Assembly (NCBI GenBank): GCA_016191165.1
Contig: JACPPF010000152.1
Coordinates: 1 to 44,391 of the forward strand
Reading direction: 5' to 3'
Source of the DNA: Planctomycetota bacterium
GTDB lineage: Bacteria > Planctomycetota > Planctomycetia > Gemmatales > Gemmataceae
Length of the DNA: 44,391 nt
Positions within the stretch are counted from its first letter, which is position 1. Every line of letters starts with the position of its first letter. This document shows positions 39,351 to 40,797 of this stretch, one piece after another. A program made the translations under genes and the position numbers. The notes below the pieces were generated by a model. It saw only the letters and a program-made list of their open reading frames with translations, searched no databases and was not told where the DNA came from.

Positions 39351-39713
39351 CTACTTCGCCGCCGTTTCCGCGGGCGGCGGCTCCAGGTCGGAAACCGTGA
39401 CGACTATGTGGGCATAACGGCGCTTGATCGGATACGCCGACCCGCGCGCCCTCGGCATGAATCGTTTCATGATCGGGCCGCCGTCCACACGCGACTCGAC
39501 GACCACCAGCTCTTCACGATCCCGCGCTCCGCGATCTTCGGCATTGCCAATCGCGCTCTTGAGCACCTGCTCCAACAGGCGGGCACCCTTGTTCGGGTAA
39601 AAACGGAGGAGTTCAAGCGCCTCGTCCGCCTGCAAGCCGCGAATCAAATCCGCGAATTGCCGAATCTTGCGGGCGTTCATGTCGGCGTGCTTATGTTTCG
39701 CCTGGTAATCCAT
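39351..39713 (-). CDS. rplV: 50S ribosomal protein L22
   Basis: A 120-aa L22: AKHKHADMNARKIRQFADLI, then LLEQVLKSAIGNAE and the exit-tunnel loop GPIMKRFMPRARGSAYPIKR, closing HIVVTVSDLE. It is the first protein gene downstream of the intron-containing tRNA (59 bp gap), so its transcript's 5' end may be generated by tRNA 3' processing. Confidence 0.95.
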   Translation of the reverse strand: MDYQAKHKHADMNARKIRQFADLIRGLQADEALELLRFYPNKGARLLEQVLKSAIGNAEDRGARDREELVVVESRVDGGPIMKRFMPRARGSAYPIKRRYAHIVVTVSDLEPPPAETAAK

Positions 39714-39812
39714 CTTTCCACCCTGTCTCGTTTACAGCGGGAGAGGATTGAAATCCTGTCTCGCGACTCAAGTTCCGGGGGCAGGATTTGAACCTGCGAC
39801 CTCCAGGTTATG

Positions 39813-40457
39813 CCTCCCACTTCGGCTTTCGCCGCCCGAGCGATCTCGGTTTGTGGTCTGGACTTTCCCTTCATCTTTCGGCCTTGTGGCCGGGAAGATG
39901 CCTGCCGTCAAGTCTCTACACCTTTCCGCTCAACGCGGACTTGGCTCGGGATTACCACCGCAAGAGGCTTTCCCGACTTTGACAGGTTATCACACGCAAG
40001 TCTCCTCACGTGCAGCCCATTTGGAGATCAAATCCCAGGCGTCTCGATATTTTGCGGATCGAGGCCTGCGCTGGCGTTTGCCGGATTCAACAAGATAAAT
40101 CTGGCTTCCGTAAGCGATGAACACATCAACCGGAAATATGTAGAACAGCGACAATTCTTCCAGAAAAACGAGTGCGAAATCAAAATCAGTGCATATATAC
40201 GCCTGGCGTCTCATGATTCGTCGATTTGTCTTCGTGCGACGGTTGTCCACGACGAACGCATCATCCGAAACCTGATACCAGGCAGCCTTGACCTGAATCC
40301 GCACCAGGACGCCGTCGACATCGAAGACCAGATCATATGGCAATCTGTCTCCCACCGTTCTCAGGACGCCCCAGCCTTTCTTGAGGGCATTAAGAATCGC
40401 TGCTTGCTCTGCAATATCTCCTTTCAATTTCGTGTCCACAGACTAATCTCCGGTTTG
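39813..40457 (-). ncRNA. Group I intron (IC3-like) in tRNA-fMet
   Basis: A 645-nt intron with all core helices recognisable on the minus strand. P3 is CCTGTC (39986-39981) with GACGGCAGG (39909-39901), P4 CGGGA/TCCCG and P6 TCCGC/GCGGA. P7 is GACTT with AAGTC (39865-39861). P8 is CATCTT/AAGATG with an inner CGGCC/GGCCG. P9 is CCAC/GTGG, with CCGAG/CTCGG and CGGC-GAAA-GCCG hairpins. The core words AATCCCGAGCCAAG and AAGGTGTAGAGACT match Azoarcus and cyanobacterial tRNA introns as I know them. P3, P4 and P7 differ from Azoarcus by compensatory changes. The intron ends in G. The endonuclease gene fills the P1/P2 region; the guide sequence is not fixed (a GGCT at 40017-40014 is possible). Confidence 0.92.
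39990..40439 (-). CDS. Intron-encoded PD-(D/E)XK homing endonuclease, I-Ssp6803I-like
   Basis: A 149-aa protein wholly inside the intron. The N-terminus DTKLKGDIAEQAAILNALKK is the family's first helix with Glu11. The catalytic strand pair is PYDLVFDVDG (Asp36) and VRIQVKAAWY (Gln49, Lys51). A PD..QxK variant with this spacing is, to my knowledge, that of I-Ssp6803I, the endonuclease in the Synechocystis tRNA-fMet intron. It would cut intronless tRNA-fMet genes and drive intron spread. The start is a GTG at 40439 with GGAG eight bases upstream in the 5' intron end. The TGA is followed at once by intron core helix P3. No catalytic residue is missing, so it is likely active. Confidence 0.9.
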   Translation of the reverse strand: MDTKLKGDIAEQAAILNALKKGWGVLRTVGDRLPYDLVFDVDGVLVRIQVKAAWYQVSDDAFVVDNRRTKTNRRIMRRQAYICTDFDFALVFLEELSLFYIFPVDVFIAYGSQIYLVESGKRQRRPRSAKYRDAWDLISKWAAREETCV

Positions 40458-40503
40458 AGCCTGGCGAGCTACCACTGCTCCACCCCGGGATATTTCCTTC
40501 AAC

Positions 40504-40797
40504 TCACTTGGGTCCCGCAGCCGCGGCGGCCTTGGCTCGCCCGCCGGAATGTCCCTTGAACATCCGCGTCGGCGCGAATTCGCCCAGTTTGTGGCCGACC
40601 ATGTCCTCGGTCACGAACAGCTTCATGAAGTTCTTGCCGTTGTGAACCATGAAGGTGTGCCCGATAAAATCAGGCACGACCGTACAATCGCGCGCCCAGG
40701 TCTTGATGGGCTCGCGACTGCCTGAACGCTGCTGTTTTTCCACCTTGCCCAGCAGGCGTTCATCGACATAAGGGCCTTTCTTGATCGAACGTCCCAT
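40504..40797 (-). CDS. rpsS: 30S ribosomal protein S19
   Basis: A 97-aa S19: [20 protein letters not shown], then [20 protein letters not shown] and [17 protein letters not shown]. The stop codon is 14 bp before the initiator tRNA, so RNase P cutting at the tRNA 5' end would leave rpsS with a short 3' end. Confidence 0.96.

Follow-up and report, generated by a model that had tools for sequence, protein, structure and literature searches.

The window, by which we mean the whole 44,391-nucleotide stretch of planctomycete DNA that was analysed, carries an initiator tRNA gene between rpsS and rplV of the S10 operon. The gene is split in its anticodon loop by a group I intron, and within the intron lies a homing endonuclease gene that was absent from the description given by an earlier, sequence-only reading of the locus. 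In the direction of transcription, the features are as follows.

40504..40797, minus strand: rpsS (S19), the upstream S10 operon gene, with its stop at 40504.
40458..40489, minus strand: 5' exon (32 nt, CCCGGGGTGGAGCAGTGGTAGCTCGCCAGGCT), comprising nt 1 to U33 of the initiator tRNA and matching the intron-free gene of congener L058 exactly.
39813..40457, minus strand: group I intron of 645 nt; its first nt is C and its last is G (omega-G at 39813).
40448..40451, minus strand: GGAG, the putative Shine-Dalgarno sequence of the endonuclease gene, 8 nt before its GTG, as judged from sequence.
39990..40439, minus strand: homing endonuclease gene, 149 aa with a GTG start (PF11645 PDDEXK_5, I-Ssp6803I-like), in the P1 loop.
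40014..40019, minus strand: internal guide sequence TGGGCT, with GGGC before P2 in homologs.
40018..40019, minus strand: the part of the guide sequence forming P10, T40019/G40018 opposite A35/C34.
40014..40017, minus strand: the part of the guide sequence forming P1, with G40017.U33, G40016-C32, C40015-G31 and T40014.G30.
39992..40013, minus strand: P2 hairpin, with two-sided changes in 9/9 pairs, overlapping the last endonuclease codons.
39901..39986, minus strand: P3 (39986-39981 with 39906-39901), enclosing P4, P5 and P6, identified by covariation.
39860..39916, minus strand: P7, which binds guanosine (39916-39910 paired with 39865-39860); it encloses P8 and the 3' strand of P3.
Within 39860..39916, minus strand: P8 (39900-39896 with 39876-39872), identified by covariation.
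39813..39859, minus strand: P9 region and omega-G, identified by covariation.
39773..39812, minus strand: 3' exon, comprising C34 to A73 of the initiator tRNA, with CCA not encoded.
39351..39713, minus strand: rplV (L22), the downstream S10 operon gene, with its start at 39713.

ARAGORN finds no tRNA here when introns are disallowed and one split tRNA, c[39772,40489], when they are allowed; the joined exons have the score and fold of tRNA-Met(CAT). All 73 nt of the joined exons (73/73) match the uninterrupted gene of the same-genus genome L058. This uninterrupted 73-nt copy scores 69.1 bits against the Rfam tRNA model (cut-off 29). The sequence-only reading had put the split between U33 and C34 and given spacings, on a common strand, of 14 bp from rpsS and 59 bp to rplV; its exons, boundary and spacings proved correct to the base. 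The marks it had listed (a C1xA72 mismatch, A11-U24 and a CAU anticodon) are all present, and from the first two we conclude that the tRNA is an initiator. The run of three consecutive G-C pairs in the anticodon stem is incomplete: G30-C40 and G31-C39 are present, and 29-41 is A-U. Bacterial exceptions to the three pairs exist. The A29-U41 pair that replaces the first of them (window 40458-40470) is common to the Gemmatales, intronless relatives included.

That a group I intron interrupts the tRNA is supported by a profile match and by covariation. A scan of the whole window with Rfam Intron_gpI (RF00028) at its cut-off missed the intron, and the local match at 40017-39845 had an E-value of 2.3e-8 and a score of 39.1 bits, below the gathering cut-off of 50. 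Intron_gpI is a general model, and the group I case is carried instead by covariation among homologs. Helices P2 to P9 are common to 39 homologous cores from many phyla, with 97.5% of cells paired and compensatory (two-sided) changes in 39 of the 56 pairs. None of 500 shuffles reached these values, and shifting the partner by one column lowered pairing to 44%. Together, the pairing, the covarying pairs and the shuffles rule out a chance resemblance to a group I core. P3, P7 and P8 are paired in 99.6%, 100% and 97.9% of cells, respectively, with compensatory changes in all three; for P7, which was entered by hand in the covariation alignment, five of the six pairs are invariant, and the sixth goes from U-A to G-C in three sequences. 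One Nitrospirota locus (L101:3425-3587) holds an intron core without much of P5-P6 and is perhaps a degraded or assembly-damaged copy.

The guide sequence was located by comparison. GGGC stands directly before P2 in all 34 ORF-free introns (34/34) and in every assessable ORF-bearing intron, so that P1 pairs U33.G, C32-G and G31-C, and P10 pairs C34-G. A U.G pair at the 5' splice site together with an internal guide sequence is present in the assessable homologs, and a terminal G precedes the 3' exon in every homolog. A candidate located after the splice site but ahead of the endonuclease gene paired inconsistently, with U33-A among the pairings, and was dropped after GGGC had been found before P2, in ORF-free introns included. 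On this sequence evidence, the intron is a further member of a known mobile family and is predicted to self-splice.

The endonuclease ORF matches PF11645 at 3.2e-45 (Pfam) and aligns over its full length with structure 2OST (1.5e-59, 63% identity), which we take to be I-Ssp6803I; the PDB entry is titled only "putative endonuclease." Among 74 aligned members, D36, Q49 and K51 never vary, and E11 is found in 72; residues of this type are presumably catalytic. Sequence family and conserved active-site residues together place the protein among I-Ssp6803I-type PD-(D/E)XK enzymes. 2OST has a Q at the E11 position, perhaps introduced by engineering. Most of the ORF precedes the guide sequence and P2, which puts the ORF in the P1 loop. 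The final endonuclease codons (...WAAREETCV) double as guide sequence and P2, and all nine P2 pairs covary in spite of this coding overlap. By analogy, the enzyme would be expected to cleave intronless tRNA-fMet genes.

To place the locus in context, we compared rpsS-rplV gaps in related genomes, as the sequence-only reading had proposed. The initiator tRNA lies between rpsS and rplV in 29 of the 60 sampled genomes of the class, namely the window genome and 28 of 59 relatives (17 others of the family, 7/7 of the order's second family, three of f5 and one of f7), and it lies elsewhere in the remaining sampled families. Counted among the relatives are two congeners whose contigs start (G002:C8) or end (G004:C106) inside the embedded tRNA; these breaks might reflect coexisting intron-bearing and intron-free alleles in the sample. 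Outside the class, no tRNA/rplV adjacency was seen in 129 genomes drawn from the phylum, with positions compared by eye. The embedded tRNA is oriented with the operon in every case examined, and the rpsS-to-tRNA spacer is mostly 5-74 nt, with two negative values (L070, L077) that stem from the stop-codon walk. No terminator-like site was found on the coding strand of the rpsS-rplV spacer; the promoter scan covered sigma-70-like sites only, and the tRNA may have a dedicated promoter of another kind. By strand, short spacers and conservation, the initiator tRNA is an S10 operon member, as the sequence-only reading had held, and we infer that it is co-transcribed with the operon. That reading had known of no other initiator tRNA gene in the S10 operon. 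Our literature search, with most subscription journals outside its coverage, likewise found nothing on an initiator tRNA in this operon or on planctomycete tRNA-fMet introns, but the gene order is not peculiar to the window genome. The position, common to many relatives, appears to be previously undescribed.

Within the Gemmataceae, the embedded initiator tRNA is mostly intronless. The intron is there in four genomes (the window genome, G035, G032 and G010) and absent from thirteen, with an empty site in the congeners G001, G003, G005 and G006 and in others. Because of this distribution, the simplest reading is that the operon arrangement arose within the class and that the intron arrived later. 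The endonuclease gene is intact in the window genome and G035; in G032 and G010 it is cut to its C-terminal 41-47 codons, with differing breakpoints, and exons and core are kept. In G205, the initiator tRNA is not in the operon and its intron is without an endonuclease gene. Across these genomes, the sequence pattern is that expected of a mobile intron in which the endonuclease gene decays once the intron is fixed and selection would still maintain splicing.

Taken together, we consider it highly probable that the Gemmataceae initiator tRNA gene is a conserved member of the S10 operon that has been invaded by a mobile group I intron, and that the locus works as follows. Transcription of the S10 operon would run through the tRNA. 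The intron would fold, with exon nt G30-U33 and the guide GGCU forming P1, and a guanosine bound in P7 would attack after U33. Judging from the fold, the exons would be joined at the anticodon (U33/C34) via P10 and the terminal G. The tRNA would then be freed by RNase P and 3' processing, CCA would be added, and the rest of the transcript would stay as rpsS-side and rplV-side mRNA. By homology to I-Ssp6803I, the intron would spread by homing: its enzyme would cleave, in the anticodon region, initiator tRNA genes without an intron, and repair of the break would insert a copy. The operon and initiation would be spared because splicing restores the tRNA.

The sequence-only reading had reasoned that initiation would need splicing if this were the principal tRNA-fMet gene, and it had suggested counting other copies. 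The assembly (95% complete, 183 contigs) yielded no second initiator tRNA, and its sole uninterrupted CAU tRNA is of the elongator type (C175). Initiation therefore probably depends on splicing, within the limit set by the completeness of the assembly. Another group I intron (L227:1427-1800; C143, 4026-4399) interrupts the tRNA-Ile(CAU) on C143; this CAU tRNA is tRNA-Ile2-like and split at the same anticodon-loop site, and the second intron also occurs in G003 and G005 of the same genus. If the assembly is complete here, all initiation and all decoding by the split tRNA-Ile would depend on self-splicing. It is quite unlikely that the interrupted copy is instead dispensable or dead and that a working initiator tRNA sits in an unassembled part of the genome. 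The incompleteness and fragmentation of the assembly would leave room for such a gene, and G009, G022 and G023 do show a second initiator-like gene elsewhere. However, all 73 exon nt match those of intronless relatives, the intron has kept an intact core, and the congeners G001, G003, G005 and G006 each have one high-scoring copy in the same place, in addition to the lack of any other copy found in this assembly.

Less probable still is that the intron, instead of being a tolerated parasite, has been recruited, splicing included, to couple the supply of initiator tRNA with the synthesis of ribosomal proteins. Group I intron splicing requires guanosine, which would suit such a role, as would a single initiator tRNA within a ribosomal-protein operon, yet most relatives with the identical gene order do without the intron, and the endonuclease gene has decayed as expected for a selfish element. 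An assembly chimera or contamination that fused the S10 operon with a tRNA carrying an intron, the artefact that the sequence-only reading had itself named and that a draft of 183 contigs might invite, is excluded in practice: many other assembled genomes have the identical order, some with the intron and some lacking it, and three other Gemmataceae have rpsS - tRNA-fMet with intron - rplV. Read as invasion by a mobile intron, the locus suggests that such an element can persist in an essential single-copy tRNA within an essential operon.

A genome-wide scan recovered 80 endonuclease loci from Cyanobacteria, Chloroflexota, Nitrospirota, Bacteroidota, Pseudomonadota, Planctomycetota, candidate phyla and others. 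At ~40 of these, the endonuclease gene is nested in a tRNA-fMet intron at the identical U33|C34 site. The sequence-only reading had named tRNA-fMet introns of cyanobacteria; they do occur there, but not only there, and their range now extends to many phyla. The endonucleases of the window and of G035 are sisters (support 98/89), and the window endonuclease groups with a protein of Synechocystis salina, in which the tRNA-fMet intron measures 655 nt. No relatives of the endonuclease were found in viral contigs. In Nostocales and Bacteroidota, the gene stands ~90 to 850 nt downstream of an intron-bearing tRNA-fMet, side by side with it and not nested (33 loci in all, including L083, L087, L089, L110, L144, L150 and L154). 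The idea that non-nested endonuclease genes are free-standing beside an intact tRNA-fMet was rejected, as most adjoin an intron-bearing tRNA-fMet.

Initiator tRNA abundance helps set translation capacity. In a clade with the only known initiator tRNA gene in a ribosomal-protein operon, a link between ribosome supply and initiation capacity becomes testable, with intron-bearing and intron-free relatives as natural controls. A broader but unlikely proposal is that the single initiator tRNA of the Gemmatales, and of some sister families, genuinely belongs to the S10 operon, with its supply tied to ribosomal-protein synthesis, and that guanosine-dependent splicing adds a control on both in intron-bearing species.

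Among known systems, the closest comparison is with the tRNA-fMet group I intron of Synechocystis PCC 6803, which is 655 nt long and carries I-Ssp6803I with 150 codons (PMC1995217, table 1). The host tRNA is the same, and the insertion point is that of L151, a close relative of PCC 6803 (U33|C34, 655 nt); the window endonuclease is 63% identical to I-Ssp6803I and nearly equal in length, with its gene at the corresponding position inside the intron. By contrast, the host of the window intron is a planctomycete, its host gene lies in the S10 operon, the anticodon stem is CCAGG/CCTGG, and the endonuclease falls on a separate Gemmataceae branch. The group I (IC3-like) introns of bacterial tRNA-Leu(UAA), tRNA-Ile(CAU) and tRNA-Arg, which also occur in these planctomycetes, share the compact core and anticodon-loop insertion, whereas most of those opened (tRNA-Leu(UAA), tRNA-Ile(CAU), Arg and Asn loci among them) are short, lack an endonuclease gene and lie in other tRNAs. 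Finally, collaborative homing (reviewed in PMC3984707), in which intron and endonuclease gene are neighbours, resembles the 33 of 80 endonuclease loci at which the gene stands downstream of a tRNA-fMet whose short intron has no ORF, while in the window the endonuclease gene is inside the intron.
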